Source: Scleroderma bovista (lineage: Eukaryota; Basidiomycota; Agaricomycetes; Boletales; Sclerodermataceae). From it: a DNA stretch of 64,000 nt. Where the stretch lies: positions 1 through 64,000 of the forward strand of contig JAYMGJ010000719.1 of assembly GCA_037178675.1 (NCBI GenBank), given 5' to 3'. Within the stretch, counting starts at the first letter, position 1; each line of letters begins with the position of its first letter. The translations under genes and the position numbers were made by a program. The notes beneath the pieces are model-generated. The model saw nothing but the letters and a program-made list of their open reading frames with translations, ran no database searches and was not told the origin of the DNA. Positions 3,801-27,244 of this stretch are shown here, in pieces.

Positions 3801-5934
3801 TCAGAAAGAGTCTGCTTGCTTCACTGCACTCACCAGTTGTTTCACTTCATCCTTGTATTTCTGTAATGAAGATTAGTTGATAGCATGCTTGATAGATAAA
3901 CGAAACCCACCGCTTTGGCCTCTGCGGACAATTCCTCAAAATATGCATTGAATTCTTCAAGTGAACCACCAATTTGTTTCTGATAACGGTGCATGCAAAG
4001 TGTTCTATTAAAATGATTAGTCGATAGAAAAGCTTCTGTATGGTAGTACCTACCTTGCACTTTTGTTCGACGGTGGGCGCCAGGCCTTCTTCTTGTCACC
4101 TATTGTTGTTTTCTGCAGCAGCACAGGTGCTGGCTGTTTGGGTAGTTGCGAAGTTGGAGTAGGGACTGCCTGCATAGGTGGCCATGACACCATGTCAGGC
4201 ACTATGTCCATGGATGGCTGCAATGCTGGAATGGATATCAAGTCGTTCTGTACAGGGCATGGGGATATGGCCTTGTTTGTGACTATGCACAAGTGTCAGC
4301 ACAGTCCAAACATGTGATTGTGACTCACCTGGGAGCCCTCCTCTGCTTGCTTGCTCAGCTTGAAAATTTACAGGACCATGAGCGATGTCATCAGATGTGC
4401 TTGAGGCTTTCTGTGGGGGACATGTGTTGGCAGTTGGAGGCCCTGCAGGGCGTACCGATAATCTATCGAGATGGTTAGTGAGTATACAAAAATAAGCACG
4501 GACTTACAATGGGTGCTTGATTAAAGGGGGATCCATGGTATTTCCTTCTACCACAGAGTTGTTTGATGTATTAAACTCGCCTAAAAAACACATTAGCAAC
4601 TTGATTATGTTATACGTATCCTCTTGCCTGGTGTGGGAGTATAGTCATCATCATGCCAGGGAGAAAGCTCACCCACGTCAGGGAATGAACGATCTGGTGA
4701 TGGGGTAAGCATCTGAGGTGCAGATGAACCTGATCTGGTGCTGGCAGGATTGATCGAGGAGGCTGATGATGATGCACTAATTGATGAACTGTTCTGAGGA
4801 ACGTCGCTACTGCTGTTGTTGCAGTCTGGAGATGGGGAAAGACCAAGCTTTGCATGCTTCAATTCAGGTGACGAGATGTCAAGTTCGTCCACAACCTCCT
4901 TTTTTACTTTGCGCTTTGTGTTACTGTCCAACTTGTTGGTGAACCAAGTTTGCTTGAAACCAGAGTAGTGCTTTTTGCCTAGCATGTTGGACTTCCATGT
5001 GCCTTCGCATAAGTTAAGTTCAGGGTGGGACCACACCACTTCATTGCGGAAGGTGTTCTTAGCACTCAGCGGCATGGATGACCAGGTAGTGTGAGAATTG
5101 ATGATCCCATGGATACGAAACTCATGCCAGACGTCCCGTGCCGTCTGGAGAATGGTGCCTATGTCCGTGGTGTCGAGAAGTTTCCCCTGCTCATCTTCTA
5201 TAAATGATGTGTATTGATTAGCACACTGTCCTTCTGTGGTCTGATTCAACCATGTTTTCCACTCCTTTTCAGTCCAGAATTGAACACTCTTGTGGTCAGC
5301 TCGGTTGAGAGAAGGGGGAGAGCTTCCATTTAACAGAAGCGGGGTGCTGATGGGCGCTGGCCGCATTGCAACATTGATGGGGCCATCCGTCATGGATGCA
5401 CTGGAATATGAGTTGCTATGGGTTAACTGTGAAACTAACATACTATATGCATTTCTACAATTGAAGTAGCATCAGTAATCCAGATGATCACGATCAACTT
5501 ACTGAATAGTAGTGCGTTCTGCCTTGAGTGAATTATTTTCAAACTGAAGCTTGGCAACCATTTCCTGAAGGTATTTGTTCTGTTGTACATGCTGCATATA
5601 GTATGCAGAGGATGAGCGATTTGGACAACCCAACTTGAGACTCACTGATGATTCTGAAATGCCTTGGTTGTAGCCCGATGAATTATTGCCTTGTATCTGC
5701 ACAAATGACAATTATCCTGAACTCGGAATATATCCGATTGCTTACCTGGTATGATTGTCCTTGGTTTATCTGCGAAGTATTGCCCCACCCAGAGACAGGG
5801 GTGGTGGGCAGTAAAGGGGAGTATTGGTTGGGGTAAAAATTGCTGGAGGATCCATTATATGCATCTGAAGAAGGACCTGGGGGATAGTTTAGAGAATTCT
5901 GGCCATCTGGTAAGGACAGGGGAGTGGTCGACAT
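3801..5934 (-). CDS. Spliced 599-aa basidiomycete hypothetical protein
   Basis: Eight exons join into one open frame: 5934-5746, 5696-5503, 5442-4616, 4580-4508, 4462-4329, 4282-4054, 4004-3911 and 3860-3801 (TGA). They total 1,800 nt with no stop. Seven introns of 35-60 nt have GT..AG ends; the 35-nt one (4,581-4,615) is the weakest call. The N-terminus is Ser/Asn/Gln/Pro-rich, as in regulators. About residues 95-125 look like a short coiled coil (Gln-rich, then Leu-Gln-Glu-Met). A compact block near residues 160-270 with several Trp (WTEKEWKTWL, later W-H-E-F and G-T-W-K) resembles a recurrent uncharacterised agaricomycete domain. A Ser-rich linker and a second short helical region follow. 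The function is unknown. It is divergent from the gene at 6,038 with about 100 bp between the starts, so the two may share a promoter or be cargo of one transposon. Confidence 0.65.
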
Positions 5935-6578
5935 GGTGGGCAGAGGGAGCGATGATGTTTACCACTGTTTGTCTCACATCGCCACAATTTCTCCAAGTCT
6001 AGCATTTCCTCCTGAACACCTTTGTCCCTCTGTTATCATGGCCAATGACAGCACCATCAAAATCATTGAAAATATCATTGTTCTCGAAGTCAACAATTTT
6101 TTACAGGGTTGGCCAGCATATGTCATCAATTTTACAGCTCAAGATGCTGGCCCACACGTATGTATTACACATTTGTTCTGTTCAAACTGACTCATCATAG
6201 AAAATCGTTCTTCATCTGAAGGACCCTTCCAAGTGTGTTAACATCGAGGCAGACAGCAATGAAGATTCCACAGACTTTCCGAGTGAATACAGTAAGTCTT
6301 ATATCACGCATATATTCACCTTACTTGATTGTTATCCAGAGAAATTGACTACCAACTGTGACGGACGTGTTTGGGTCCCAACGCCAAGGTAAGCTGTCTG
6401 AAATGCATTTTTTTGATCTCACCATTGCAGTTGAAATGGGCCTTGTCGCCCATATGAGAGTGAGGAGTCTTCAGATGATGGTGACGACCATGTTGAGTGG
6501 TGTAATCTCAGCACCTCACCTCACTAGTTCCCAAGCTAGTACTTGGGTTAAACCCCCCCAAGTAAGCCATGTACCCTT

Positions 6579-6651
6579 GACCATATAGCTCAGTGGTTAG
6601 AGCACCTGGTATAGACCTAGGAGGTCTAGGGTTCAATTCCCTGTCTGGTCA
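6579..6651 (+). tRNA. tRNA-like Pol III cassette in LTR1
   Basis: These 73 nt fold as a cloverleaf: a 7-bp acceptor stem (GACCATA with TCTGGTC, one mismatch), a perfect GCTC/GAGC D stem, a CCTGG/CTAGG anticodon stem with one G-T, a TAGGG/CCCTG T stem, loop TTCAATT and discriminator A. The A box (TAGCTCAGTGG) and B box (GGTTCAATTCC) match the consensus exactly, and a T4 terminator follows at 6,658-6,661. The anticodon position reads TAG, but position 33 is A instead of the near-universal T and the variable loop is short, unlike a true tRNA-Leu. It is therefore read as a tRNA-derived transcription unit, not a decoding tRNA. Confidence 0.7.
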
Positions 6652-6665
6652 CATTACTTTTAACA

Positions 6666-6679
6666 GGTTATGAGCCCTG
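6666..6679 (+). promoter_or_regulatory. Primer-binding site of the TRIM
   Basis: GGTTATGAGCCCTG directly follows the CA end of LTR1. Its complement contains GGGCTCATAACC, the anticodon arm of initiator tRNA-Met (anticodon CAT). The same site follows the LTRs of the copia elements at 27,231-27,244 and 39,231-39,244 (reverse strand) and 58,535-58,548. A second TRIM copy is at 7,026-7,039. Confidence 0.75.
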
Positions 6680-6836
6680 TGTGCTAAAGTGGTGATGTTC
6701 CTGATAAGTCCCAGTATCCTAGTAAGCCCTTTAAAAGGAAGGCAACCCCCATGGGGTTAGTAAGCCCTACCATCAAGGCAATGGACCCGATTAGGCAATG
6801 GATTCCCACACCTGCACTTTGTAATAGTGATGTGCT

Positions 6837-6850
6837 GGATTAGGGGAGGC
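6837..6850 (+). other. Polypurine tract of the TRIM
   Basis: GGATTAGGGGAGGC immediately precedes LTR2. The same tract precedes LTR3 at 7,197-7,210. Position and composition fit the plus-strand primer site of an LTR retroelement. Confidence 0.65.
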
Positions 6851-6938
6851 TGTTGAGTGGTGTAATCTCAGCACCTCACCTCACTAGTTCCCAAGCTAGT
6901 ACTTGGGTTAAACCCCCCCAAGTAAGCCATGTACCCTT

Positions 6939-7011
6939 GACCATATAGCTCAGTGGTTAGAGCACCTGGTATAGACCTAGGAGGTCTAGGGTTCAATTCC
7001 CTGTCTGGTCA
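6939..7011 (+). tRNA. tRNA-like Pol III cassette in LTR2
   Basis: Identical to the cassette in LTR1, including A box, B box, A at position 33 and the downstream T4 run (7,018-7,021). It lies in the middle LTR of the array. Confidence 0.7.
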
Positions 7012-7298
7012 CATTACTTTTAACAGGTTATGAGCCCTGTGTGCTAAAGTGGTGATGTTCCTGATAAGTCCTAGAGTCCTAGTAAGCCCTTTAAAAGGAA
7101 GGCATCCCCCATGGGGTTAGTAAGACCTACCATCAAGGCAATGGACCCAGTTAGGCAATGGATTCCCACGCCTGCACTTTGTAATAGTGATGTGCTGGAT
7201 TAGGGGAGGCTGTTGAGTGGTGTAATCTTAGCACCTCACCTCACTAGTTCTCAAGCTAGTACTTGGGTTAAACCCCCCCAAGTAAGCCATGTACCCTT

Positions 7299-7370
7299 GA
7301 CCATATAGCTCAGTGGTTAGAGCACCTGGTATAGCCTAGGAGGTCTAGGGTTCAATTCCCTGTCTGGTCA
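7299..7370 (+). tRNA. tRNA-like cassette in LTR3, 1-nt deletion
   Basis: Same cassette, but one A is missing from the anticodon loop (TATAGCC instead of TATAGACC), giving 72 nt. A and B boxes are intact, so Pol III recruitment could persist even though the cloverleaf is slightly damaged. Confidence 0.65.
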
Positions 7371-7698
7371 CATTACTTTTAACAGACCAAGACGAAGATG
7401 AAGAGGCATTGTCAGGAGAGAAGACTCCACCCACGACTGTCAGCGCAATCCCAGTTGAACTCTCTGTGATTTGCACTGACATGATTCCTGTTAAACGCAA
7501 GATCTTCGACAAGGATCACTGGCCTCCTCACCGACCTCACACTTTCCGCAGGATTTCAACTTGCGAATCAATTGCATCATACTGAGGGTTTATGACATTC
7601 CCAGCAGCTGTGAAGGCCACACCCGAAGTTCTTGATGGAGAAGAGGCCTCTGGCACCATCGTGCAGTAAAGAATGCCATCAAGCATGAACTCATGGAC

Positions 7699-10600
7699 TC
7701 ATGGACTTCTTCTTGTACTAGTATTATTGTCTGGCTCCCATGTATTATGTTCTGGAATGCAAGTTTTCGTGTTAAACTCAAACATGTCAGAATCTTGGTA
7801 TCTAAAACTTGTTGTTCTCCTCCAAGCCAAATCACATGATCTCCATACCTGTTTTTCAACTAAAAAATACCTTTCCTCGGCTACTCCATGTACTCTGGGA
7901 CAATGAGGAATCATGGTGACAACTGATTGGATTGTTGATATATTTATCACTTGCAAGCTTGCTTCGCCTAGCTTCATACAGGAAGCGAGGACACCATAGG
8001 ATTGTTCTAGTAGGTAAGGATGGGGATCTGAGTAGAGCGTGACAAGAGCAACATCGTCAAACTGAAACTGCTCGGGAGTAGCAAGGTCTTCATCACCAAC
8101 TGGAAAGTTGTCTGCTGCCCTGACGATGAGCCGCATAAAGTATCACACTTCAGCAATCTGGTCCTTTCCATCAAGGATAATCTGCATTGCAAGAAGAGTG
8201 AATACTACGACACGACTATTAGAATGATAGACTTACCTTGACATTCCAAGCCATCCGAATCTCTTCTGGTGCCCTTTGTAGCTCCTGGTATTCTAAACGG
8301 GCAATCTGACCATTGGGCAGGCAAAGACGCGCCCAGCGATGTATTTTAGGTGCATGCAGTTGTTCAAGATACTCGGCTACAACTCTCGCCTCTGCTCCTG
8401 AAACTTTGACAGGGTATCTGTCATGTTTGGAAAGAAGGGTGTAGTTATTGCTGAGATCAGCCAATGCACATAGGTTTATGTTGTCTGGTGGATCAAGCTG
8501 TGGAATCATGGCCTTCAATGCATTAACTTGACAACGGCAAATCCCTTGCTGCATGAGATTGGAGAAGGGGTCTGACGGCTGACGAATTTCTTGACCAAGA
8601 TTGCCAATAGTCCTCTCCATTGTCCACTGCAAGGAACAGATTGGTGAACCAACACGTGCTGCTTCAGAGGCAAGATGACACATAAGATGAACACATGGAC
8701 AGATGAATGGAATACGGTCAACACAACATTGATAAAAGACCATCTCAAACTCCAGTGCCCATTCCATGATCAACTGGTAGGCACACTGCAGCTGTGTGGG
8801 AGTGATGCTGTACTGTGCCATGATCCTAAGACCAGCAACAAACTTGCAGAAATTTCGCCAGGGACGTTCAGGTAGGATTCCATAGAGTAGAGCTGGGCAC
8901 AAGCAATATATCCAAGTAATGTACTCTGTCGCTTTGTACCATGAATTGGAATGTTGACTAGGGTCCTGAGGAGCAACATCAAATGAGCCAGGGAGGTACA
9001 TTTTGCGGGCAGCAATGGCACAGCCATGGGCCTCCCAAGTCTCGGTGTTCTTGAGGACAGTCCAATACCAGCTGGCTTCATCATCTGTCGAAGCACAATC
9101 AAACTTCCCATGCCAGAGTTTGATCCAAAGCATAGCCATATTTGCACCGCTCAGATGCATCATTTCTGATGAAAAGACTTCAGGGATACCCTGGATAAGG
9201 TGTGGCTGGAGGCCAAGCAAGATACTTGGGCCAACGATTCCTGTTTCCAGATGGTGTTTCTCATACTCTCGCTGTGTTGGTGAGCCAAGAACATGTATGA
9301 GCTTCTCAACATATACATGCAAGTGACTCGGACCAATGTCGTGGACACTGACATCAGGGTGATCGCAACCACGCACAGTATAGTTATCCAGCTTCAGTAA
9401 AATGGGATAATAGTGAGATCCACCTGGCTTGTGACACCCTTTCAAGGGACATAGCATCCAACAGCCATTCCTTCCCTGGTGACCAACAAAGTTGCTCAGA
9501 GTCAGTAGTCCAGGGCCGTTGGCACAAGCAAGAAATAGAAAGAGCCGTGAAATAAATTCATGATCTTGAGATGCGTCCCAGATGTGAAGACCCTCACGCT
9601 GCACTGCAGAGAGGTGATGCAGCCCTGGGAAAAGAAAGGAGTCGATGTTCTTGTGTTTCTTGGGGCCAGGGATGATGGCACCTGGAAGAACATGCTTCTT
9701 CTTGTAGTGGTGGTCAGGGGAGAGCTCAAGGACAATCCATATGTATATCCAACAATCAGATTCTTTGCTTTTGTACAACTGCACCCCATCAATTGATATC
9801 ATGAGGAGCATGTCATCACGCTTGATCCTATTTTGAGACACCACATCGAGGTAAGAGTGGCCACAAAAAACATCATCATATGTGTCAACCAGTCCACCGT
9901 TTCTTTGGAGCTCTTCAAATATCTGCTGTGTGTGTCTGTCCTGGTAACACATCTTCTCAGCACTCTCAGGATGTCGCCAGAGGGATTGGAGCTGTGGGGA
10001 GATGGGAATGGTATGGAATATGGCACGAGGGTGCTTTATTCTCCCATTGCTCTTGTTGAGTTTGACTTGGTCGTATCGTGGCTCTTGACACTCTGGACAG
10101 GTGTCAAGATCGGTGAAGGGCTCTACACATGCCGCACATGAATTAATACACATATGATTGGCTACAGACATGACTCCGCTGAGATTGGTGAGGAGATGCT
10201 TCGGCATCTGGAAAGCACTTCTCAATGGCTCTCTGAATCTTGTTGTAGGTTTTTTCAGATGAATGTTCGAGTGTGATAAACATTGAAAGAGCGAGTTCGG
10301 TGTACTGGTCGTCTATGCATAGGGGCTCTTTTGGTGGATCACGGAGACATTGGAGGGCATCACCTGTTAGACCAATGCCATCGTTGAGAGAGGCATTTCT
10401 GATGGCCTGTACAAATGACATGCCCTGGAGTTTCGGCAACCTTGCCATGTGTGCAAGGCCTTCTAGGTCAAGGTCAAGAAGACTCCTGTCAACAGTGTGA
10501 GGTGGTGGTGAGGGGGGCCAATTGTTATTGGGAGGTGGGGATGAGGGAGGCCAATTGTTATCAGGGGGGGGATCGTTATCATTGCTGCGAGAAATCTGAC

Positions 10601-12603: not shown

Positions 12604-12608
12604 GAGTG

Positions 12609-12835
12609 TGTTAAGATAAACCACAAATGAGCACTCTGGTGCCCAGTGTCAGAGACTGAAGAGAAGAGACTCTGGGCATGAAAATTTCAACTATACAAAC
12701 AAAGCAAACAAAGAGAAACAAAGGAAAACATAAGCCACTAATCATGTGATGATCCATGAAAAGAAGGAGCTGAAGTAATCACCCAAAAAGGCATCCATAA
12801 GCACAATAAGAGTGCACAAACACTCAATACCAACA
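12609..12835 (-). repeat. 3' LTR of copia family 1
   Basis: On the reverse strand it starts TGTTGGTATTGAG and ends ATCTTAACA. The upstream purine tract AGGGGGGAG (complement of 12,836-12,844) marks this as the 3' LTR. Confidence 0.92.
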
Positions 12836-12866
12836 CTCCCCCCTGATTGTGCATCTCTGCAAATCA

Positions 12867-15265
12867 TCAACTCCCCCCAGATCCACCAAGTCCCAGCATC
12901 TGACAAAACTCCCCCACCTTGGGTGTAGTCAATGGTTTGGTGAGTAGATCAGCAGCCTGTTGAGTGGTAGGGACGAAGGAAGGTGTGATAGCCTGTTCCT
13001 GGACCGCATGTCGAAGCCAGTAGTAGCAGAGATCCAGCTGTTTCATCCTGCCATGGTGTTCTGGATTCTTGGCCACAGAAATCGCAGATTGGTTGTCAAT
13101 GAGCAGAGAGGAGGGACCAGGAAGGGGAATACCAAGCTCATGCATCAGATTGCGCATCCATTTGATCTCCTTGCCTGCTTGGACAGCTGCCATGTACTCA
13201 GCTTCAGTAGTAGATAGAGCAACAACATTTTGCAACTTAGAAGACCAGAAAACCGTACCAGTACCCATCTTGACCACATATCCACCAGTAGAGCGACCAG
13301 TATCCTTGCATCAGAGAACGTGATAAAGATCTCAGGTTGCAAGGGATCAGGGGAGTAGGTGATAGAGTAGTCAAGGGTACCCTTAATGTAGTGCAGAAGG
13401 TGTTTGACAGCGAGCCAGTGGGTCCAGCCTAGATTGGAGTTGAATCTGGCCAATACTCCGACAGAATATGCGATATCTGGATGAGTAGTGGTAGCAAGAT
13501 ACATCAGAGCACCAACAGCAGAGAGATAAGGAGTCTGACACATAGTTGCAGCTTCCTGAGCATTCTGGGGGCTCTGAGTGCAAGACAGACAAAGGCCAGG
13601 TTCCATTGGAGTGAAGATGGGTTTCCAGTCAGCCATACCAAACCTGTCAAGGACATCAAGGCAATACTGCCTTTGGGAGAGTGAGATAGAGCACTTGGCA
13701 CGATCCCTGTCGATTTTGATGCCTAGAAGCTGAGTAGTAGGCCCCAGATCGCGGATTTTGAAGTGCTGGCTCAGTTGGGCGATGAACGACTGGATGGCAG
13801 GTTCAGATTTCGAGGCTAGAGTCATATCATCGACAAAGACAGGGAGAATGATAGTTACACCATCCTTGGAGTAGATATAGATGCTGGCATTGGAGTAGGT
13901 CTGTCTGAAGTCAAGGGACTCGAGTACAGAGCGCATCTTCTTGTTCCAGCGGTTTCCGCCCTGTTTCCTGCCATAAATAGCCTTCTGAAGCAGACACACC
14001 TTGGCCTTGGGATCTCCCTCCACAAATCCTTCAGGTTGCGCCATATAGACCTCACAGTCCATTTCCCCATTGAGGTAGGCATGAGAGACGTCGAGGGAGT
14101 GCAGGTGGAGGTCCTGGAGTGCAGCAAGCGCAAGGATAACCTGGATGGAGGAAAGGCGAACAGTAGGAGCGAAGACTTCAAGGTAATCGAATCCAGGATG
14201 CTGGTTGTAGCCCTTGGCCACCAATCGAGCCTTGTAGCGGTCTACAGAGCCATCTGCGTTGCGCTTCACCTTAAATACCCACTTTGAACCAATGACCTTA
14301 CTCCCAGCAGGTCTAGGAACAAGGGTCCAAGTACCATTGGACTGGTGAGCAGCCAGCTCCTCCAAAGCAGCCTGTCTTCACTTTTCTGCATCAGGACGAG
14401 TTAGAGCCTCTGCAAATGTGAGTGGCTCATCTGGAAGGGATGCAGACATTGCCAACTCATCATCACTGTCCTCCATCTCATCAGGTTCATCGAGCTGCGC
14501 AGGGGAGAGCATCCACCACTCCCTAGGCTTCTGTCTGTTGCGCATAGGCAGTCTGGCACTGATTCTGATGGGACTAGGAGGTCTGGGACGTGGTTCTGGG
14601 GATGGAGTGCGCACAGGAGGCGCAGGAGGTTCATCTGGAATAGCAGGAGGTTCTGGATTAGCAGGTAAAGGTATAGGCTCCCCCCCATGATCCAGTACCT
14701 CATTGCATTCGCTGTCAGAGTCCAGAGTCGCACCAGGGTTGTAGTATTCAACAGGGGGCGCAGGTGGGACGAGAGCAGGAGCAGTAGGGGGAGGCTGGGA
14801 GGGTGAGGGCGATCTTTTGGACATAGGGAAGTACCTTTCATCAAAATCAGCCCTTTCAGAGATTAGAGTGCGCTTGGAGGTAGGATTATAGAACTTCCAG
14901 CCTTTGTAACCCTCAGGATAGCCTAGAAACACGCACTTCTCCATGTGAGACTCCAGAGGTCGCCTCTTGTCCTTCTGCACATGCACATAGGCAGTACAGC
15001 CCCAAACTCAAAGGTGGGAGACATCAGGCTTGCACCCATGCCACAGTTCATAGGGAGTAGCATCCTTGATTGCCTCAGTAGGACACCTGTTCCAAACATG
15101 GACTAGAGAGGCAAGGCAGCTGCCCCAGAAACCTTTGGCAAGGCCAGATTCATCCAACATTGCAGTCATCCGTTCAGATAAAACCCTATTAGCATGCTCT
15201 GCAACTCCATTCTGCTGGGGTCGATTCCTGACAGTATGCTGGCGAAGAATGCCGCATTGGGTGGT
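12867..15265 (-). pseudogene. Copia pol 3' part: integrase end, RT, RNase H
   Basis: From 15,265 down: the integrase C-terminal half (RPQQNGVAEHANRVLS, LAKGFWGSCLASLVHVWNR) with a TGA near 15,008 where CGA would keep His-Leu-Arg-Val-Trp-Gly-Cys. A Pro-rich spacer follows, then a stop at about 14,375. The reverse transcriptase starts with KVIGSKWVFKVKRNADGSVD and has NGEMDCEVYMAQPEGFV and the catalytic FVDDM. A frameshift near 13,315 lies before RNase H (VALSTTEAEYMAAVQAGKE, then SLLIDNQSAI and HHGRMKQLDL). The frame ends at 12,867. It is the downstream half of the gene interrupted at 15,273. Confidence 0.92.
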
Positions 15266-15272
15266 AAAATTG

Positions 15273-17236
15273 CAGGTAGTTCAGTCACAAACCCTCGCAA
15301 AAGTGGGTCATCGGACATGTACATTTGCCTGTAAAGGTGGGACTAGCCGACGCCAGCCGATGCTCGCAGAACTGGGCCAGGCCAATGTTTTCTATTATTG
15401 CAAATCTAGTACAGGCCTGAGGGACATTAATCACTGCAAAACTGGGATGGGCTGATGTTTGATAAAAATTGCAGAACTGGGACTGGTGGGAGCATTGTAA
15501 AACTAGGTCAGGCCTGTTGAACAAAAAAATTGACAAGTGTTGCAAAGCTGGGACTGGCCGATGTTGTAGATACATTGCAAAACTGGGTCAGGCCTGTTGA
15601 GAAAAAAGTTGTCAATTACTGCAAAACTGGGTCAGGCTGACATGGCAGAATGGGGTCAGGCCTTTTGAGGAAAAAATTGTCAAGCATTGCAAAACTGGGT
15701 CAGGCTGACATTGTATATACATTGCAGAACTGGATCAGGCCTGTTGAGAAAAAAAGTTGTCAAGCATTGCAAAACTGGGTCAGGCTGACATTGCAGAACT
15801 GGGTCAGGCCTGTTGAGGAAAAAGTTGTCAAGCATTGCAAAACTGGGCCAGGCTGACATTGCAGAACTGGGTCAGGCCTGTTGAGAAACAAAGTTGTCAA
15901 GTACTGCAAAACTGGGTCAGGCCTGTTGAGCAAAAAAGTTGTCAACCATTGCAAAACTGGGTCAGACCCAAAATTGATACACATTGCAGAATTAAATTAC
16001 TGTGCTGACTACCAAAAATGTGGACCATTGATTAGGCAATATTGTGTACTGTTGGTGTGATAGTGTTGACTACCAAAGATGTGCAGCTTGGATTATCTAA
16101 TGTTGTGTTCTATTGGTGTGGTAGTGCTGATTACCAAAAATGCGGACTATTGATTGGCCAATGTTGTGTAGTGTTGTTGTTGTAGTGTACTACCAAAAAT
16201 GTGTAGTATTGATTACCTAATGTTGGGTACTCTTGGTGTGGTAGTGCTGATTACCAAAAATGCGGACTATTGATCAACCAATATTGTGTGGTGTTGTTGT
16301 AGTGTACTACCAAAAAAAGTGTAGTACTGATTACCTAATGTTGTGTAGTATTGATGTGATAGTGTTCATTACCAAAAATGCGGACTGTTGATTAGCCAAT
16401 ATTGTGTAGTGTTGTTGTTGTAGTGTACTACCAAAGATGTGTAGTATTGATTATCTAATGTTTTGTACTGTTGGTGTGGTAGTGTTGATTACCAAAAATG
16501 TGTAGCTTGGATTACCTAATGTTGTGTACTGTTGGTGTGGTAGTGTTGATTACCAAAAATGCGAACCATTAGCCAATGTTGTGCAGTGTTGTTGTTGTAG
16601 TGTTGATTACCAAAAATGTGTAGCTTGGATTACCTAATGTTGTGTACTGTTGGTGTGGTAGTGCTGATTACCAAAAATGCGAACCATTAGCCAATATTGT
16701 GTAGTGTTGTTGTTGTAGTGTACTACCAGAAATGTGTAGTATTAATTACCTAATGTTGTGTACTATTGATGTGGTAGTGTTGATTACCAAAAATGCGAAC
16801 TATTGATCAACCAATGTTGTGTAGTGTCATTGTTGTAGTGTTGATTACCAAAAATGTGTAGCTTGGATTACCTAATGTTGTGTACTGTTGGTGTGGTAGT
16901 GTTGATTACCAAAAATGCGGACTATTGATTAGTCAATATTGTGTAGTGTTGATTACCAAAAATGTGTAGTTTGGATTACCTAATGTTGTGTACTGTTGGT
17001 GTGGTAGTACTGATTATCAAAAATGCGGACTATTGATTAGTTGTTGTAGTGTACTAACAAAAATGTGTAGTATTGATTATCTAATGTTGTGTACTGTTGG
17101 TGTAGTAGTACTGATCATCAAAAATGCGGACTATTGATTAGTTGTTGTAGTGTACTACCAAAAATGTGTAGTTTGGATGACCTAATGTTGTGTACTGTTG
17201 GTGTGGTAGTGTTGATTATCAAAAGTGCGGACTATT
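15273..17236. repeat. Left inverted arm: two tandem repeat types
   Basis: The outer ~180 bp is unique and mirrored at 24,350-24,534. From about 15,430 to 15,980 run tandem units built on 'aactgggtcaggcctgttgag' with 'aaaaagttgtcaa', about 45-70 bp each. From about 15,985 to 17,236 run composite units of about 120 bp made of two related halves, with marker words 'aaaaatgcggactattgatt' and 'accaaaaatgtgtag'. The array resumes at 20,992 after the Harbinger insertion. Confidence 0.85.
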
Positions 17237-17386
17237 AGTGGTGCTCAGCGGCACTCTGCTGGCGCTATGCAATGGCTATGCAGCCAGGTTGGGCTGCCAT
17301 CTGAGTTTGAAAAATACATGCCTCCACTACGACTGTCCCAACGTTGTTCTGCACGCCTCAAGGAGCGTGCAGGACAGACTCTCACC

Positions 17387-19041
17387 ATGGCTAGCAGCAA
17401 CACCAGCTCAAAGGCCCACAAAAACCCAGGAGGTCAGCCCGTCAAACCTCGGGCGAGAGGTTCTGCAAGAGGTCATGGGAGGGGAAGGGCCCTCGCTGTT
17501 CCCCAGCCTACTCAATCTCAGCCTCCCCAACAGCACGTTGAACCCCCCACCGAGGATTCCCAATCAAGCAGCACTGGAAATGTCAACTGGGACAACAATC
17601 CAACCCTCACGACTAGTCTTATCCAGTGGCTCCTCACTCATCCTGCTGATCGACACATCCTCTTCCATGATTGCGCTTCCACCCACACCCCAGTATCTGG
17701 TGATAGGGCTTCCGGGAAAAACAAAAAAGAAGTCCAAGCTGTCATCGCAAGACACTTGTTCGAGAAGGATCCCAATTATGGATCAGCATATACCTCGGAC
17801 CCAGGGAGATTTAGTACTTCGTTGAACAATCGGTTATCAACGTAAGTTAAGTCCATATCATTTGTACGTTAGTACCCTCTACTGATTGACCGTTTCCCCC
17901 CCAGGTTAAAAAGGTTATATCGCAATCAGCGTACGCGCTTAACGAGCACTGGACAGGGTGTAGTCCCGGGGACTGCTCATCCAAATCTCTTAGGTGTGTT
18001 TAATCTATGATGCAATTCCATCACTAATATCGCCTTCTGCAAGCTGAGATCCGTACAAAATATCCTTTCTATGACGATCTCGACACGATATGGCGGGGAA
18101 TCCCATCTTTCGATCCCGATCTCATATCCTCTGACCTTAATGCAAACAACACTGAAAGCCTCCTAGATGCAATACAGAACAGAACGGGGGCAGATGCGGA
18201 TGCGGATCCCCCCAAAGACAATGACTCCAACCCTACCTACGATGGACTAGCTGGAGATGGCACATTTCCAGGCGATGATACTGGAGAAAGGCAGTTGGAT
18301 GAAGATGAGGCGATGAGGGAGATTGATGACCAAATTGCAGCCCTGGATCAGGGAGATGTGGGTATGGATGCGGAGGAGATGGATTTTGGAGGAGGTGCAG
18401 ATGAGATGGATGACTCTGGACCACTTGGGCCAATTCCAGCGGTGAGTATTATTATTATCATCATACTCTGAATAATTCTAATTGTGTGTCATTGAAAAAA
18501 GCCTCCCCCCTCCGCGATGCCCACCTCAGGCAAGAAGCCACTTACCCCGAGGCCAAAGACACCATCATGGGATGGACGCTCTGCGTTCAGGCATACACCA
18601 TATCCTCCCCCCAGCTCCGCCCGTTCGTCTACTAGTTCACCTTCCATGGCCTCCACTGGCAAAGCTCCAAGCAGCTCAGCAACAAGGCGAGCGGGGTCCT
18701 CATCTGCCAGCGGCAGTAAATACGAGTGTAGACTCAATGAGCTGGAGGAGGGGACTTTGCAAGTTGGTGATGCTGACTATAACCGAACTCGTCGTATGCT
18801 TGCGAAGTACAACTTTGCCGTCAGGGACAAGGAACTTGCCATGCAGCGGGAGGAACAGGCATCAAAATATGCCAATGCTGAGACTGAGTTTCGGCGTCAA
18901 GTTGATCTGAAGAAGCTCAACATTGAACTGAGACAAGCGGAAGAAAATGCCGTATCTAAGCAGGTTCAGCTGCTGCAGCTGCAGATCGAGTTGGCAAAAT
19001 TGAAATCCACAGGTGCCGAAGACTCGGAGATGAACTCTTAG
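17387..19041 (+). CDS. Harbinger accessory DNA-binding-like protein (493 aa)
   Basis: The start is ATG 17,387 in a good context (CACCATGG). Exons 17387-17841, 17905-17993, 18044-18441 and 18502-19041 join in frame to 1,482 nt. Introns are 50-63 nt; the third acceptor is AAG. N-terminal ~60 residues are Gly/Arg/Pro/Gln-rich. Residues ~70-200 hold the Trp-containing helical region expected of the Myb/SANT-like partner: WDNNPTLTTSLIQWLL, then SGKNKKEVQAVIARHLF, LNNRL and KYPFYDDLDTIW. An acidic region (~200-310) and a Ser/Pro linker precede a C-terminal coiled coil (~390-480). In PIF/Harbinger elements such a protein binds the transposon ends and helps bring the transposase into the nucleus; that role is inferred from family knowledge. 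No stop or frameshift was found. Confidence 0.8.
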
Positions 19042-19243
19042 GCATCACCTTCCATCCGTCATCGCTGCTCATCGCGTCCCCCTCGTATCAATCGTTCGTC
19101 CCCCGGCACATATACACACTCTAACATTGTCTTGTTGTCACAGTTACTTGTTGTCATCGCTATGAAGTTTTTGGACAATGGTTGTACGTGTCTGTATGTA
19201 TACTAGTCTGACTGTTGTCTCGAATTGATGTGTATTTTGAACT

Positions 19244-20770
19244 TCAAGCTAGTAAACCAAGATGTTGAAACAACCTTGTCATCAACTCTGTACGGAACTG
19301 CTGTCCTGGCGTTCCAGCAGGGTCATCAACCACTACTGGCTGGGTGCGGTGGTTTGCCTCCCGGCCTTCCCTTCTTGCCCATGCAACCGACGACTCGATT
19401 CCTAACACCCTTTCAAACGAAACAATCATGTTGTGAAGGATGATACAACACTGTACCCAGTGTACCGCAATCCGAATGTCTTTTTTCGTTCTAACTTGCA
19501 GTCGAAGTTCTCGGAGTGATTGAAAGCGACCCTTCAAAGCGGCAAATGCATGCTCAACGCGGACCCGAACCTACATGATGAGTTCTTGCCTATCTGAAAT
19601 TATAATGCTACTTACTTTTGACAGATATTTGTTGTATAAATTTCTAGTTCTCGACAACCCCCCACCAGTGGCCTTAAATGGTACAACGCACCAAGTCTGC
19701 GTTGGATACGCGCTGTCCACCCAGATCCAATGATCTTCCGGGATCGCTTGATCAGGATTCTTTGCCATCCGCGTACCCTGGAATGCGTAGGCATCATGAA
19801 CACTCCCTGGGTGTCCCAATCCATAGTCAATGATACGGAGATCGTGTGGCATGACAACAAGCTGAATGAAGTTTAGTCAGTGGGCTCTTTGTAGTGTGGC
19901 ACGTCTACACACCTGGCAATTAAGTGAGTAGCACGACTTTCTGTCATAAAATGTTTCACCATAGATACCCGGTTTCTCGAACAGGTTTATGGTTGACCCA
20001 TCCGTGACAAATACTCCATTTCTCCAGCCTGGGCAGCTACAATCCTCTACCCACTGTCGTGCCATCTCCACTTCCTCGGAGTTCACATCAGGAACGGCAA
20101 GAAACAAATCATGCTGGTCTAGCACGGTGACCATTACGCGGTGAGTGCAGTTTACTACAGAACCCACACTGACTCCGGCCCACTGGGCCACATCTTCGGG
20201 AGATATGGCATTGCCATAGTGGCCAGCACGGTTTAGAAAGATTGCGAGTTGGATCGCCACAGGTAATTGAGGTTGGTTTCCGCGTGAAAGAAAAATTGGA
20301 TGGCCGCTAATCTGATCCAGGATGCAGTCAAACACCTCAGGATCAACGCGCAACTTCTTGCAGAACAGATGGGGCCGGAAGTCGGCAAAATGCTCAAGGA
20401 GTGGCAACTGCGATGCTCGCATCATGGGGACTGGTATACGCTGGAGTACGCGCACCTTCAGTACCTCATCACGGAGTGCGCTGATTGCACCCAATAAATG
20501 GCAGTACCGAGCATCTTCTAGCACAATGGAATCTTTACTTGAATCAGGGTCATCGTCATCGCTCAGGAATGACATGATCAGGGAGATCGGAGTGATTGGG
20601 GAGGGACAGGGAATGATCACAGGTAGGTCGTCCTCTGATTCAGTCTCCTCTGTATCACTGACATCCTCTGGGTCGTAGTTTTTGATAGTTTCCAGGCGCC
20701 TTTCAGCCACTAACAGGGCAAACATGTTGATTCTCTCCAAGAAAACCTTCCGGGAAGACTGGCGAGGCAT
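19244..20770 (-). CDS. HARBI1-like DDE transposase (476 aa)
   Basis: The start is ATG 20,770. Exons 20770-19913, 19861-19616 and 19570-19244 join in frame to 1,431 nt; the introns are 51 and 45 nt. N-terminal ~110 residues are acidic and variable. Residues ~145-215 form a helix-turn-helix-like region (PVAIQLAIFLNRAGHYG, then WAGVSVGSVVNCTHRVM). The DDE core follows: first Asp in VFVTDGSTINLF, then the GHPGSVHDAYAF loop, second Asp in WIWVDSAYP, and Glu in RVRVEHAFAALKGRF. This matches the DDE_4/HARBI1 superfamily in order and spacing, and the length is usual. It is convergent with the accessory gene. With intact TIRs and TSD the element looks recently active. Confidence 0.92.
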
Positions 20771-20991
20771 GGTGCACAGTATGGTTGTAGGGGATCAAGA
20801 ATCAGATGTTATATTTCTTTTTTTACTTTCAATGTTGTACCAATCTAGACTTAGAATTTTTGTTGCGCTTTGGGCTTATTAATAAGCAGCGGCATGACAA
20901 ATTTCACATTCAGCACGCTGCAAACCAACTGCAAAATCATGGTGCATGGCCATTGCATAGCGCCAGCAGAGTGCCGCTGAGCACCACTATT

Positions 20992-21560
20992 GGTTAGTCA
21001 ATATTGTGTAGTGTTAATTACCAAAAATGTGTAGTTTGGATTACCTAATGTTGTGTATTGTTGGTGTGGTAGTGTTGATTATCAAAAATGCGGACTATTG
21101 ATTAGCCAATATTGTGTAGTTTGGATTACCTAATGTTGTGTACTGCTGGTGTAGTAGTGCTGATTATCAAAAATGCGGACCATTGATTAGCCAATATTGT
21201 GTAGTTTGGATTACCTAATGTTGTGTACTGCTGGTGTAGTAGTGCTGATTATCAAAAATGCGGACTATTGATTAGCCAATATTGTGTAGTGTTGTTGTTG
21301 TAGTGTACTACCAAAAATGTGTAGTATTGATTACCTAATGTTGGGTACTCTTGGTGTGGTAGTGCTGATTACCAAAAATGCGGACTATTGATTGGCCAAT
21401 GTTGTGTGGTGTTGTTGTAGTGTACTACCAAAAATGTGTAGTACTGATTACCTAATGTTGTGTAGTGTTGATGTGATAGTGTTCATTACCAAAAATGCGG
21501 ACTGTTGATTAGCCATTATTGTGTAGTATTGTTGTAGTGCACTACCCAAAATCTGTAGTG
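20992..21560. repeat. Left arm of foldback element, continued
   Basis: The ~120-bp composite repeat units continue in the same orientation and register after the Harbinger insertion, ending in 'actacccaaaatctgtagtg'. That word is mirrored near the inner edge of the right arm, around 22,660-22,690. Confidence 0.85.
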
Positions 21561-22480
21561 TTAATTACATACACTGCAGCTTTGCACCTGCAGTACTGAT
21601 ATGATGTAGCACATTTCCGCATTTTTCAAACCTTGAATGTTTTGTGCCTCTAAGCATGTCAGCAACAGCTGAGTATAAGCATTATGTGATATTAGTAGGC
21701 TGTTGGTAGCATTTCTAGGTCAGTAGATGTTATGTGTTGTGTGATATGTAATGTTTTTGCATATCTCCGCATTTTGTGGGGTATTTTCCCACGCCTTCTG
21801 TATGTTATTGTGCCCTTCCCTCCCCCACATCAAGTGGTATTGACTTGAGTAAATTGTATCCACTACTGTATGGTATCCCCCAGCTTTTGAGATAGTCATA
21901 TTGTGCATACCTGATCTGGAGGATCATACAGCACCTATTGTTATGAAAGTGCTGTTTTCTATGCTGCTCCTCTTGGAGTGGTCAGCTGCTCACTAGATTG
22001 TATTGGGACTTTGGTATAGCATAGTAATACCACTGGAGACCATCCAGTAGCCACCATACCTCCTAGTAATTGCCTGCCATGGTGATATGTTTGCAAAGGA
22101 AAAACATAAAACATCGCACCAGGACATGGATCCCATGCTGTGGACTGTAAATATGTTGTAGGTACATATATCCCCTGTATGGGGATGCATTCTTTAAGTT
22201 GATATGTTGAATGTATAAAAAATGCGAACATTTTTGGTGTTTTTAAGCCTGCACTACTCTCTGGGGATACAGAGCCCCTTGCACATTTAGATGAGGGTCC
22301 AATGGTGATCCTATAGGGTAATATGGGATACAGAATCATTTTTACAGTACATTTGGACCAAGGATGAAGCACAGAAGGGGAAGAAAAGACCAGAACAAAG
22401 GTGGGAATATTTGAAGTCAACTATTGACCAAATATGGTAATGTTTTGGGAGTAGTGGCGGTTGGAGAGCTTATGTAATCA
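21561..22480. other. Central core of the foldback element
   Basis: About 0.9 kb of unique DNA between the two repeat arms. A reverse-strand open frame of 153 codons (21,959-22,420) shows no recognisable domain and may be chance. No transposase motif was seen. Confidence 0.5.
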
Positions 22481-24534
22481 AGTGTTGACACTACTGAATT
22501 TAGTTAATGAAAACTACACAATGTTGGTAATCAACTCCAATACACAAACACTACACTACATTTCCTAATCAATAGTCCGCATTTTTGGTAATCAACACTA
22601 AACAATAATGGCTAATCAGAAGTCCGCACTTTTGGTAATCAACACTACACAACATTGGGTAATTAACACTACAGATTTTGGGTAGTGCACTACAACAATA
22701 CTACACAATAATGGCTAATCAACAGTCCGCATTTTTGGTAATGAACACTATCACATCAACACTACACAACATTAGGTAATCAGTACTACACATTTTTGGT
22801 AGTACACTACAACAACACCACACAATATTGGTTGATCAATAGTCCGCATTTTTGGTAATCAGCACTACCACACCAAGAGTACCCAACATTAGGTAATCAA
22901 TACTACACAATATTGGCTAATCAATAGTCCGCATTTTTGATAATCAACACTACCACACCAACAATACACAACATTAGGTAATCCAAACTACACATTTTTG
23001 GTAATTAACACTACACAATATTGACTAACCAATAGTCCGCACTTTTGATAATCAACACTACCACACCAACAGTACACAACATTAGGTCATCCAAACTACA
23101 CATTTTTGGTAGTACACTACAACAACTAATCAATAGTCCGCATTTTTGATGATCAGTACTACTACACCAACAGTACACAACATTAGATAATCAATACTAC
23201 ACATTTTTGTTAGTACACTACAACAACTAATCAATAGTCCGCATTTTTGATAATCAGTACTACCACACCAACAGTACACAACATTAGGTAATCCAAACTA
23301 CACATTTTTGGTAATCAACACTACACAATATTGACTAATCAATAGTCCGCATTTTTGGTAATCAACACTACCACACCAACAGTACACAACATTAGGTAAT
23401 CCAAGCTACACATTTTTGGTAATCAACACTACAACAATGACACTACACAACATTGGTTGATCAATAGTTCGCATTTTTGGTAATCAACACTACCACATCA
23501 ATAGTACACAACATTAGGTAATTAATACTACACATTTCTGGTAGTACACTACAACAACAACACTACACAATATTGGCTAATCAACAGTCCGCATTTTTGG
23601 TAATGAACACTATCACATCAATACTACACAACATTAGGTAATCAGTACTACACTTTTTTTGGTAGTACACTACAACAACACCACACAATATTGGTTGATC
23701 AATAGTCCGCATTTTTGGTAATCAGCACTACCACACCAAGAGTACCCAACATTAGGTAATCAATACTACACATTTTTGGTAGTACACTACAACAACAACA
23801 CTACACAACATTGGCCAATCAATAGTCCGCATTTTTGGTAATCAGCACTACCACACCAAGAGTACCCAACATTAGGTAATCAATACTACACATTTTTGGT
23901 AGTACACTACAACAACAACACTACACAACATTGGCTAATCAATAGTCCGCATTTTTGGTAATCAGCACTACCACACCAATAGAACACAACATTAGATAAT
24001 CCAAGCTGCACATCTTTGGTAGTCAACACTATCACACCAACAGTACACAATATTGCCTAATCAATGGTCCACATTTTTGGTAGTCAGCACAGTAATTTAA
24101 TTCTGCAATGTGTATCAATTTTGGGTCTGACCCAGTTTTGCAATGGTTGACAACTTTTTTGCTCAACAGGCCTGACCCAGTTTTGCAGTAATTGACAACT
24201 TTTTTCTCAACAGGCCTGACCCAGTTTTGCAATGTATCTACAACATCGGCCAGTCCCAGCTTTGCAACACTTGTCAATTTTTTTGTTCAACAGGCCTGAC
24301 CTAGTTTTACAATCCTCCCACCAGTCCCAGTTCTGCAATTTTTATCAAACATCAGCCCATCCCAGTTTTGCAGTGATTAATGTCCCTCAGGCCTGTACTA
24401 GATTTGCAATAATAGAAAACATTGGCCTGGCCCAGTTCTGCGAGCATCGGCCGGCGTCGGCTAGTCCCACCTTTACAGGCAAATGTACATGTCCGATGAC
24501 CCACTTTTGTGAGGGCTTTTGACTGAACTATGTG
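22481..24534. repeat. Right inverted arm of foldback element
   Basis: Reverse complement of the left arm: the 120-bp composite repeats from about 22,500 to 24,090, then the 'cctgacccagttttgca' units (24,115-24,320, fewer copies than on the left), then the ~180-bp unique end. The arms differ in copy number but keep the same order. Confidence 0.85.
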
Positions 24535-24541
24535 AAAATCG

Positions 24542-25870
24542 ATGAAAGTGTTGCTCATATACTCCCCTCCCTTGTCATCACGCAGGATCTTGATCTTTCG
24601 CTCGCTCTGGTTCTCAGCAAAGGCCTCAAAAGCTTGGGACTTTGCCTTGAGAGGGATAACAAAGCGAAATCTTGAGTAGTCATCAATGAAAGTGATCCAG
24701 TATCGATACCCAGACATGGAGAGGTGGCCTACATCGTGGACATCACTTTGGACAAGTTCCAGAGGTCTGGAGGCGCACCAAGAGGAGCTAGGGAAGGGGT
24801 TGGCATGCATCTTACCAGCCAGGCATGGTTCACAGATAGGACCAGGGGCATTCTTTGAGTCTATGGCCATACCAGTGACAATGTTGTGATGAACTAAGGT
24901 CTTCACATCAGCCAGGTGGTGGTGGGCAAGTCTCCTATGCCACAAGTCGAGGTCTAGAGGGATAGTCGTCGCTGCAGACGCAAATTCGACCAGTGGGGTG
25001 GTTTCTCCATCCAGAAAAGCGCAGTTGGTGTTCCCAATGTTTGCCACGAAGAGGACAGGTCCAGGAGGTCGTCTGAAGGCCATCTGCGTCGCATTGATGC
25101 TCACAAGGAAGCCCTTACTTCGACACAAGTATAGCACAGAGAGTAGATTATTCCTCAAGTCAGGGACATGCAGGACGTTGGTAAACTCGACAGGGTGCTG
25201 CTTCCTTCCTCCAATAACCAGTACAAACACCACAGACCCCACCCCAGCAGAATAGACAACTTTATTGTCTGCCAACTTCACAGGGACACATTTTGGAGTA
25301 TAATTGCGGATCCAGTGGCGATGGGGGGTCATATGAGCAGTGGCCCCAGTGTCTGCATTCCAATGGACGTCAGCATCGAGTTGGAGGGGATACAGAGGAG
25401 AGGAGGGATCAAGGGAACGAAGACTTGCATTTCAAGTGAACTCCATGGCCTGGGAAGCGGACTGGGAGCCAGAGGACGACTCAGCAGGTGTCTGAGAAGA
25501 GCTAGACGCATCAGAGGCTTGATTCGCAGCATTACCACCCCTCTTAGTGTGCTTAGTCTTCTGAGCAAGGTAGTTAGACTTAGCCTTGACCAGATTTTGG
25601 CACTTATGGACACAGTGGTTCGAGTATTTGCAAAAGGAGCAAGATACAGATAGGGGACACTTGCAAGAGGTACCAGACGCAAATAGGACGGCTTCAGACA
25701 TAGTAGAGGCCTCAGGACGGCGCATGCACTGCAGTTCCTCCGCTAGGAAGGCCTCCTTGAGCCTGTCTTTCTCCAAGGACTGGAAGAGGAGCAGAGAGGA
25801 CACAAAGTGGGAGTAGTCATCGCCTAGGGATCGCACCATAGCCATGCAGATGAGCTCATTATCCAGGTCC
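24542..25870 (-). pseudogene. Copia gag end, protease and integrase N-part
   Basis: Reading down from 25,870: the gag C-terminal region (LICMAMVRSLGDDYSHFVSS) and a CCHC zinc knuckle CSFCKYSNHCVHKC (CX2CX4HX4C). A stop near 25,435 precedes the protease, whose active-site block ADTGATAHMTPH falls near 25,340. The pre-integrase zinc region WHRRLAHHHLADVKTLVHHN with CEPCLAGKM and the integrase core (SDVHDVGHL, TFIDDYSRF, DDKGGEYMS) follow. The frame runs into the foldback insertion at 24,534. Confidence 0.9.
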
Positions 25871-25875
25871 TTGAT

Positions 25876-26609
25876 TGTCAAGCACCTACAATCTCCGCCT
25901 TGCTGCTGGGTGCTACTCCGACGAAAAAGGGGACAAGTCCGACGGGAGGAGGTACAACTCCGAAAGGAGGAGACGCAAGTCCGACGTAGAGGAGGACAAG
26001 TCCTACAGAGGAGGAGTTCAGCACCTGAAGAAGGGAAAGGAAGACGTAGGGGGTGAGGGCATCGGTTTCAGCTTATGTGCTGCGCCCTTGGACAGGCTCA
26101 GCCCTCGTATTTTGGAGGAGCGGAGGAGTGACAAAGGAGTAGGAGGAGGAGGAGGAGGAGGAATTTAGAGTCAGACAGAAGCAAGATGGGGACGGGGCTT
26201 TGTTCATATTTGTACTAAGGTACGAGGAAATACACAGAGGCTTATATACTAACTGAAAGGACAGGATCCTTGTGATAAACACAAGACATGTGAAAGGCGG
26301 AGTAGGAGAAACACATGAGAGGAGGAAACACATGGAAGGAGTACGTAGCAACAGGGTGACAAGTAAGTGACAGGAAGGAAACAGGGTATGTACCTGGAGG
26401 TATGACAGAAGTGGGCCGGACAGGCCGGAGGAACAGAGTAGGAGTTCGGAGTAGAAACGTCGGAGATGGTAGGAGATGTGTTGGAGCAAAATAGGAGATA
26501 CATCGGAGTTGGTAGGAGATACATCGGAGTTGGTAGGAGATATGTCGGAGCAACGAGGAGATGCGTTGGAGCAAGTAGGAGATGTGTAGGAGTTGGCATG
26601 GATGTGACA
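25876..26609 (-). mobile_element. Solo LTR of another LTR element
   Basis: It starts TGTCAAGCACC and ends GGATGTGACA, 734 bp, flanked by a perfect 5-bp duplication TTGAT (25,871-25,875 and 26,610-26,614). Excision restores the gag frame (..TTPYTI to KDLDNE..). On the reverse strand AGTATATAAGCC near 26,245 looks like a TATA box, so the LTR probably runs on that strand. It contains GGAG-rich tandem runs, for example 'gttggtaggagatacatcgga' repeats around 26,460-26,590. No internal region or sister copy is in the window. Confidence 0.85.
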
Positions 26610-26614
26610 TTGAT

Positions 26615-27073
26615 GGTATAAGGGGTGGTGCCATCCTTGGGGCGAAGCTGCTGGATCTTGGACATGGAGTCCTCAATCCTGGCGATGAGGGAGGTCAGGG
26701 ACTCGTCCTGCTTATTCCTAATCGAAAAGAAGTCGTCCCAGGCATTGAAACGGGCTCCAGGACGCTGTTGGAGGTGGAGAGACTCGAGGGTGGACCAGAT
26801 CTGTGCAGGGTTGTCTTGGACAGCGTCTATATGTGTCCTTTGTTCAGGAGAAAGTGAAAGATAGAGCTGGCCTGCAGCCTTGTCAGCCCTAAGATCCCAC
26901 TTAGCCTGAATGTCAGACTGGGAGTCATCAGGGCGCTTCTCAGCACCACTGACAATGGTCCAGAGGCCTTTGGTGCACAGGAAAGCCTTCATTTCCCCCT
27001 TCCAGGTCGAGTAGTTGGAGGAGGAGAGTTTTGGGAAGGAGGGAGTCGAGGAACTGGTAGAGTCGTTGGCCAT
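26615..27073 (-). pseudogene. Copia gag N-terminal part
   Basis: The likely start is ATG 27,073 (MANDSTSSSTPSFPKLSSSN). NYSTWKGEMKAFLCTKGLW, KWDLRADKAAGQLYLSLSPE, IWSTLESLHLQQRPGARFNA and DESLTSLIARIEDSMSKIQQ follow, a typical copia gag (UBN2-like) series. The frame is cut by the solo LTR at 26,609 and continues at 25,875. Confidence 0.88.
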
Positions 27074-27230
27074 GAGGACAAGAATCAACTGAGGATGCAA
27101 TGGGAAGGCTGGGGAGCGAGTTCTGAGACTGGAACAGAAAGAAGGAGTGTGGAAATCGATGTAGCAGGAGTAAAAAGTCACGCAGGAGCAGGAAGGCGGT
27201 CTAAGAGGTAGTCCTAAAGGTCCTGGAGCG

Positions 27231-27244
27231 CAGGGCTCATAACC
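27231..27244 (-). promoter_or_regulatory. Primer-binding site of copia family 1
   Basis: On the reverse strand GGTTATGAGCCCTG abuts the CA end of the 5' LTR. It is complementary to the anticodon arm of initiator tRNA-Met, implying a half-tRNA primer as known for copia. Confidence 0.8.

Follow-up and report, generated by a model that had tools for sequence, protein, structure and literature searches.

Cassandra is a TRIM of plants that carries a 5S rRNA unit in its LTR. A comparable arrangement, in which the LTR of a TRIM carries a tRNA-derived unit, was described by Kojima in 2024 under the name Helenus; its hosts are fungi, among which the Pucciniales have 113 families, animals and a single plant, and Helenus was grouped as TRIMp3 together with Cassandra and Ajax, a TRIM of nemerteans whose unit is a partial 5S sequence (PMC10886601). 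According to the same text, fungal Helenus elements have 5-bp TSDs and a PBS that is mostly directed against a tRNA anticodon loop, most often that of iMet, and Copia elements have been proposed as their helpers; in most families, tRNAscan-SE disagrees on the isotype of the unit, and Pol III transcription is expected (PMC10886601). A genome paper on Boletales counted TRIMs in three of five genomes and, in its passages on them, does not tie them to tRNA (PMC5689174). Helenus is also mentioned in at least one sentence of a meeting report from 2026 (PMC12859917). The sequence-only reading from which our analysis started held that no firm description of such an arrangement existed. This was wrong, since the TRIM with a tRNA unit in its LTR is an already known kind of element, and the Helenus families published in 2024 include fungal ones (PMC10886601).

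The element analysed here lies in a window of 64,000 nucleotides, which is the whole stretch of Scleroderma bovista (Boletales) DNA that was analysed. In the genome, the cytochrome oxidase 2 sequence of contig C387 (L053, translated with code 4 and taken to be mitochondrial) shows 99% identity to a record of Scleroderma citrinum Foug A, followed among the named hits by Coniophora (90%), Phlebopus (89%) and Ganoderma (about 85%), which places the host in the Boletales near Scleroderma. We found an 894-bp tandem composed of LTR1 (6491-6665, 175 bp, TGTTGA..TTAACA), INT1 (6666-6850, an internal segment of 185 bp without a long reading frame), LTR2 (6851-7025, 175 bp, identical to LTR1), INT2 (7026-7210, 185 bp) and LTR3 (7211-7384, 174 bp), all on the plus strand, and flanked by a perfect 5-bp TSD, GACCA, to which no strand is assigned (6486-6490 on the left and 7385-7389 on the right). 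The PBS, which is complementary to the anticodon arm of tRNA-iMet, occupies 6666-6679, the polypurine tract AGGGGAGG occupies 6842-6849, both on the plus strand, and there is no frame of 200 aa or more inside the tandem. LTR3 differs from LTR2 by 2 substitutions and 1 gap, and INT2 shows 8 differences from INT1. The sequence-only reading had described 6491-7384, the extent of the element without its TSDs, as a miniature LTR retroelement whose LTRs each contain a unit of the tRNA type, built of three LTRs of about 175 bp and two 185-bp internal segments with PBS and polypurine tract between perfect copies of GACCA, and all of these claims were borne out. In addition, when the flanks were joined (window 6440-7470), one frame was found to be stop-free over 43 residues across the insertion site, with the acidic stretch EESSDDGDDQDEDEEALSGEK, suggesting that the tandem may interrupt an open frame or an exon of a gene. 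A genome search with the joined site for a paralogous empty site matched the locus alone.

Each of the three LTRs holds a tRNA-like unit on the plus strand, at 6579-6651 (unit 1, a complete cloverleaf), 6939-7011 (unit 2) and 7299-7370 (unit 3, which is 1 nt shorter at the anticodon loop). All three were recognised both by ARAGORN and by the Rfam tRNA model RF00005, with 55.9, 55.9 and 51.4 bits (E = 4.2e-11, 4.2e-11 and 7.1e-10; gathering score 29), in agreement with the cloverleaf that had been read from the letters of every LTR. In unit 1, the A box TAGCTCAGTGG is located at 6586-6596 and the B box GGTTCAATTCC at 6630-6640 of the plus strand, and the TTTT at 6658-6661, a possible Pol III terminator on the same strand, is the sole T4 run in the 360 nt of LTR1 and INT1. 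The only Rfam matches in 6400-7500 at E ≤ 0.01 were to tRNA and, on the other strand, to Plastid-ycf2 below its cut-off; no 5S rRNA-derived sequence was found in this interval at the same threshold. The longest stretch common to the tRNA-like unit and the complement of the PBS is 5 nt, i.e., there is no complementarity between the unit and the PBS.

A normal tRNA has U at position 33, and leucine tRNAs have a long variable arm. Unit 1 of this element has the anticodon TAG, a short variable loop and A at position 33, and the ARAGORN call of Leu(TAG) comes without a long variable arm. Because of A33 and of a leucine call that lacks the long arm, the tRNA-like unit is probably not a normal tRNA. 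In a comparison with the 14 tRNAs called in 13 loci, which form an incomplete set, the best candidates for a tRNA parent of the unit were Ile(AAT) with 71% and then Cys(GCA) with 69%, and we name none of them as the parent.

The sequence-only reading had named a stronger conservation of the boxes, relative to the other LTR positions, as support for its proposal, and boxes decaying as fast as the flanking LTR sequence as a refuting outcome. In an alignment of 58 rows, in which one locus was counted twice, the mean deviation per column was 1.8% for the A and B boxes and 1.9% for the other LTR columns (permutation p = 0.40), so that no better conservation of the boxes was observed, and it was the outcome named as refuting that occurred; the power of this comparison is low because most of the sampled copies are more than 96% identical to the query and are too young for a strong test. 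Of 55 rows, 52 retain the TTTT, but T4 runs are about as frequent as in shuffles (1 seen, 1.05 expected). The promoter-like sequence would be the sole basis for Pol III transcription from the LTR, and equally for the escape from Pol II silencing and the packaging role of the cloverleaf that the sequence-only reading put forward.

The element resembles the published Helenus elements in being shorter than 1000 bp and non-coding, in its LTR tRNA-like unit with A and B boxes, in possessing both PBS and polypurine tract, in its 5-bp TSD and in a PBS that matches the iMet anticodon loop (PMC10886601). By these published Helenus features, it looks like a new Helenus family. Boletales, the order of the host, does not appear in Table 1 of the Helenus paper (PMC10886601). 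Like our three-LTR tandem, tandem arrays are known from Helenus, where they are noted for one fish family (PMC10886601). With Cassandra, the element shares a Pol III-type gene inside a TRIM LTR as well as the occurrence of tandem arrays (those of Cassandra according to a title cited in PMC10886601); it differs in that the gene is a tRNA and not a 5S rRNA, in that its host is a fungus and not a plant, and in that Pol III transcripts have been reported for Cassandra (cited in PMC10886601). A small-RNA promoter in the LTR is likewise common to our element and Ajax, although the latter is 5S-derived and occurs in animals (PMC10886601).

We then consider the family in the genome, which comprises 51.8 Mb in 850 contigs. 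A search with the element revealed at least 41 places including the window, with 40 of the 59 candidates scored, and a 32-nt pattern taken from the tRNA unit matched at 52 places with up to 3 mismatches, against 0 for the reversed control; the repetition of the element is beyond chance. A perfect 5-bp TSD was present in 25 of the 41 chained copies, which had been cut from 39 loci around the listed places; many of these 25 are solo LTRs, and 3 further copies gain such a TSD once a foreign 5' LTR is included. Copies with two LTRs are about 535 bp long. Five of them (L011, L042, L043, L044 and L046) show zero differences between their LTRs, whereas L014 and L045 show clear differences, and the identical pairs show that the family has been active recently. 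The pattern of the internal 5' end matched at 17 places and was escaped by a decayed eighteenth copy, L014. A pattern of B box plus PBS, intended to find other Helenus families, matched at 10 places, of which nine belong to the same family and the tenth is again this copy. L014 (C380:141839-142412) possesses a TSD and carries many short insertions across its LTRs and INT, which is an unusual form of decay.

The three-LTR tandem is best read as LTR1-INT1-LTR2 of one Helenus lineage joined to INT2-LTR3 of another. This reading is suggested by a C at column 41 that is shared by LTR1 and LTR2 and present in 4 of 53 rows, by INT1, which is nearest to L011 and L046, by INT2, which is identical to the INT of L044, and by LTR3, which differs from the LTRs of L044 by gaps only. 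The lineage switch lies between nucleotide 41 of LTR2 and approximately nucleotide 47 of INT2. The structure would fit a transfer at the PBS between two Helenus cDNAs, and recombination between LTRs fits too.

An iMet gene pattern matched at 3 places in the genome, and the 2 that were examined contain Met(CAT) genes resembling fungal iMet; the Helenus PBS is complementary to the anticodon arm over 14 nt of the gene in L110 and over 12 nt of the genes in L109. The PBS of Copia-c, which is of the same type, is complementary to the iMet gene in L110 over 17 nt. Helenus and the Copia elements here have in common the PBS against the iMet anticodon arm, the 5-bp TSD and LTR ends of the form TG..CA. 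When the Helenus INT and LTR were compared with pieces of Copia-c that do not cover all of it, the longest common stretch was 16 nt, and this was the PBS. Among the matches listed, five Copia-c LTR pairs are spaced 4,713-4,714 bp apart and one is spaced 4,441 bp apart; all five of the former show a 5-bp TSD and a PBS that starts with GGTTATGAGCCC. In L098, the internal part of a composite, the gag-pol frame is open and largely present, and its integrase precedes the RVT_2 reverse transcriptase, as is usual in Copia. In L111, an LTR of 344 bp is preceded by a polypurine tract and by fragments of a broken pol, which share 60-75% identity with the Copia-c protein (tblastn with a piece of that protein), and no Pfam domain was found in two L111 frames. 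From its position behind these remains of a Copia pol, this LTR evidently belongs to a second Copia, which we call Copia-x.

The window itself also contains a Copia-c-like element, assigned to the proposed helper family, which occupies the minus strand from 27471 to 12609; its TSD is CACTC and its PBS is of the Copia-c type. Its parts, all on the minus strand, are the 5' LTR (27245-27471, outer TSD at 27472-27476), the PBS GGTTATGAGCCCTGCGC (27228-27244, a 17-nt complement of the iMet gene in L110), an open gag frame with Retrotran_gag_2 (26249-27262, the mechanical frame beginning a few codons inside the LTR), a gag-pre-integrase part with an integrase match below cut-off (24352-25332), a reverse transcriptase part with RVT_2 (13145-14365) and the 3' LTR (12609-12835, outer TSD at 12604-12608). 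The two LTRs differ at 5 of 227 positions. The length of this element (12604-27476) suggests that about 10 kb of other sequence interrupts it.

Several further features were observed in the window. A Transposase_21 (tnp2) frame is located at 8219-10225, and a cluster of diverged direct repeats of 87-234 nt, 60-100% alike and with many overlapping copies, extends over 20999-24311. Gypsy-type pol frames occur in two pieces at 43374-48429, the second of which (45634-48429) contains RVT_1, RNase H and integrase. A frame of 328 aa at 62115-63101 has no Pfam match and has 499 relatives at E ≤ 0.001; among the 120 of these that were listed, one is named from Lactarius deliciosus.

Joints between Helenus and Copia were found when the sequence in front of the Helenus internal segments was examined. 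The LTR before the 17 Helenus internal 5' ends is that of Helenus in 9 cases, of Copia-c in 7 and of Copia-x in 1, and all 8 foreign LTRs are joined where LTR meets PBS. The Copia-c LTRs in these hybrids have lengths of 226-279 where they are intact, and one at C380 is interrupted by a nested Helenus. At the other end, all 15 internal segments with a readable internal end are followed by a Helenus 3' LTR, and a pattern joining the Copia-c polypurine tract to a Helenus LTR gave 0 hits in the genome at up to 3 mismatches. The LTR swap is one-sided, with a foreign LTR at 5' and the element's own at 3'. The reciprocal form was also observed: 12 junctions of a Helenus LTR with a PBS lead into 9 Helenus, 2 Copia-c and 1 Copia-x internal segments, and the junction in L017 leads into sequence that was read at its beginning and again 4-5 kb downstream, where the pol end and the LTR of Copia-x in L111 close it.

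Both outer ends were read in seven hybrids, a count that excludes the truncated L086 and the C380 composite. Perfect 5-bp TSDs flank three of them, L009 (GCTGA), L010 (GGATA) and L020 (GAGGC), and are absent in the other four, L013, L088, L017 and the C373 composite. Because of their TSDs, the three flanked hybrids probably formed before integration, and because four of the seven lack a perfect TSD, some hybrids may be later recombinants. In addition, the Copia-c 5' LTRs of six hybrids, the interrupted seventh being left out, differ pairwise by at least 13 changes, so that the hybrids look like separate events.

More complex arrangements were also seen. The composite array at C373:71858-77104 has the order LTR_h-INT_c-LTR_c-INT_h-LTR_h, and that at C380:145.5-146.7 kb has the order LTR_c-INT_h-LTR_h-INT_c with a nested Helenus inside. 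On the minus strand of C683, at about 4400-4800 (L096/L088), a Copia-x LTR of 343 bp is fused to a Helenus LTR from nucleotide 77 of the latter onwards; the fusion point lies 12 nt before the tRNA unit, and the outer flanks, CTTTT and CTTAT, are perhaps a decayed TSD. This single case may mark the 5' end of an RNA. Full-text searches of open-licence PMC papers found no description of Helenus hybrids, and the Helenus paper contains in its main text no word beginning with chimer, hybrid or strand transfer (PMC10886601).

We consider it quite probable that the locus is a tandem of a Helenus-type TRIM that has a Pol III promoter, depends on Copia for its copying and integration, and exchanges plus-strand DNA with Copia cDNA. 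The tRNA-like unit, a degenerate tRNA gene within each LTR, would provide the Pol III promoter, and the RNA starting in the 5' LTR would read through the T4 of that LTR and end in the 3' LTR; T4 is a weak Pol III stop in yeasts. The Helenus RNA would then be copied and integrated by the Copia elements of the same genome, a step to which the shared PBS type, 5-bp TSD and TG..CA ends lend support. If reverse transcription took place in particles that also held Copia RNA or cDNA, plus-strand strong-stop DNA, consisting of the LTR and the copied PBS, could sometimes land on the minus strand of the other element. If Copia strong-stop DNA annealed to a Helenus minus strand at its PBS end, the result would be a complete foreign 5' LTR, followed by the element's own internal segment and its own 3' LTR, and a like reaction between two Helenus cDNAs could give rise to the three-LTR tandem. 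Plus-strand DNA transfer, with Helenus and Copia cDNA in one particle, is the simplest reading of the hybrids.

Related processes are known from other LTR elements. Dasheng of rice, a non-autonomous LTR element for which the autonomous partner RIRE2 was inferred, is said to form chimeric elements with it, and the LTRs of Dasheng reportedly resemble those of RIRE2. By comparison, the LTRs in our hybrids are unrelated to those of the partner, and the switch lies at the PBS. In Ty1 and Ty3, as would be the case here, displaced plus-strand strong-stop DNA is free to anneal to the end of the minus strand, and such free DNA accumulates in Ty particles (PMC5371799). However, the Ty1/Ty3 reaction takes place on an element's own cDNA, whereas the unrelated LTRs of our hybrids must join via the PBS (PMC5371799). 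Moreover, the plus strand that is finally transferred in Ty1/Ty3 lacks the tRNA-copied PBS and anneals through R and U5 (PMC5371799), which counts against a simple carry-over of the yeast model, since our reading of the hybrids needs a copied PBS.

An alternative is that ectopic recombination or gene conversion between Helenus and Copia copies, acting through the shared PBS, produced the hybrids once the elements had integrated, in which case they would be uninformative on shared particles. A one-sided joint of the same kind would be expected if integrated elements recombined at the PBS, and the absence of a perfect TSD in four of the seven hybrids, the composite and nested arrays on C373 and C380 and the Ty1/Ty3 transferred plus strand, which in that model is without a PBS copy (PMC5371799), all agree with such a history. 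Crossing-over between integrated elements, however, would not leave the matching flanks that are seen in three hybrids, and the homology at the junctions, about 20 nt by reading the letters, is short for repeated homologous exchange, so that we judge an origin after integration to be distinctly unlikely. It is also conceivable that the element is an ordinary Pol II TRIM and that the tRNA-like unit is a passenger, such as a captured tRNA or the head of a SINE, without promoter function. A passenger would explain why neither the boxes nor the T4 runs bear traces of selection among the copies of the family, and also A33 and the leucine call without a long variable arm, with which the unit is unlikely to be a normal tRNA; against this, the cloverleaf is essentially complete (55.9 bits) within an LTR of 175 bp, a single T4 stands just behind it, and many Helenus families have the same arrangement, their A and B boxes being conserved from one family to another (PMC10886601). 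We consider a mere passenger unlikely. A chance tandem of tRNA genes or of a SINE can practically be dismissed as an explanation of the repeats: tRNA finders do call the units, but LTR ends, PBS, polypurine tract, 5-bp TSDs, copies with identical LTRs and many solo LTRs are foreign to such an arrangement, and it is refuted by the position of the TSDs, which sit at the LTR ends and not at the tRNA unit.

Going beyond the Copia-driven movement and plus-strand transfer that we prefer, we propose tentatively, and with somewhat less than even confidence, that Helenus and Copia RNA often share particles and that plus-strand transfer in them commonly takes place between different molecules. Roughly one in two of the Helenus internal copies has a Copia 5' LTR joined via the iMet PBS, which would have been taken from Copia cDNA, and the join on C683 lies about where the Pol III start would be expected, as if reverse transcriptase had switched at the 5' end of the transcript.

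Relative to the table of the Helenus paper, the host order is new (PMC10886601), and so is a record of how the element may move. For fungal Helenus, the helper had previously been suggested from similar PBSs and from a single internal similarity between species (PMC10886601), whereas here it is inferred from hybrids within the same genome, and hybrids with two Copia families of that genome support a Copia helper. Helenus/Copia hybrids flanked by TSDs are more direct evidence for a helper than PBS similarity, and they are the most direct sequence evidence that we found. For genome annotation, Helenus copies inflate tRNA counts, the tRNA unit of this one family accounting for 52 places in the genome. 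For the biology of the family, the finding makes it testable whether a retrotransposon driven by Pol II can take up into its particles and reverse-transcribe an RNA with a Pol III promoter, and in the hybrids nature may have recorded plus-strand transfers from one molecule to another whose LTR is unrelated.
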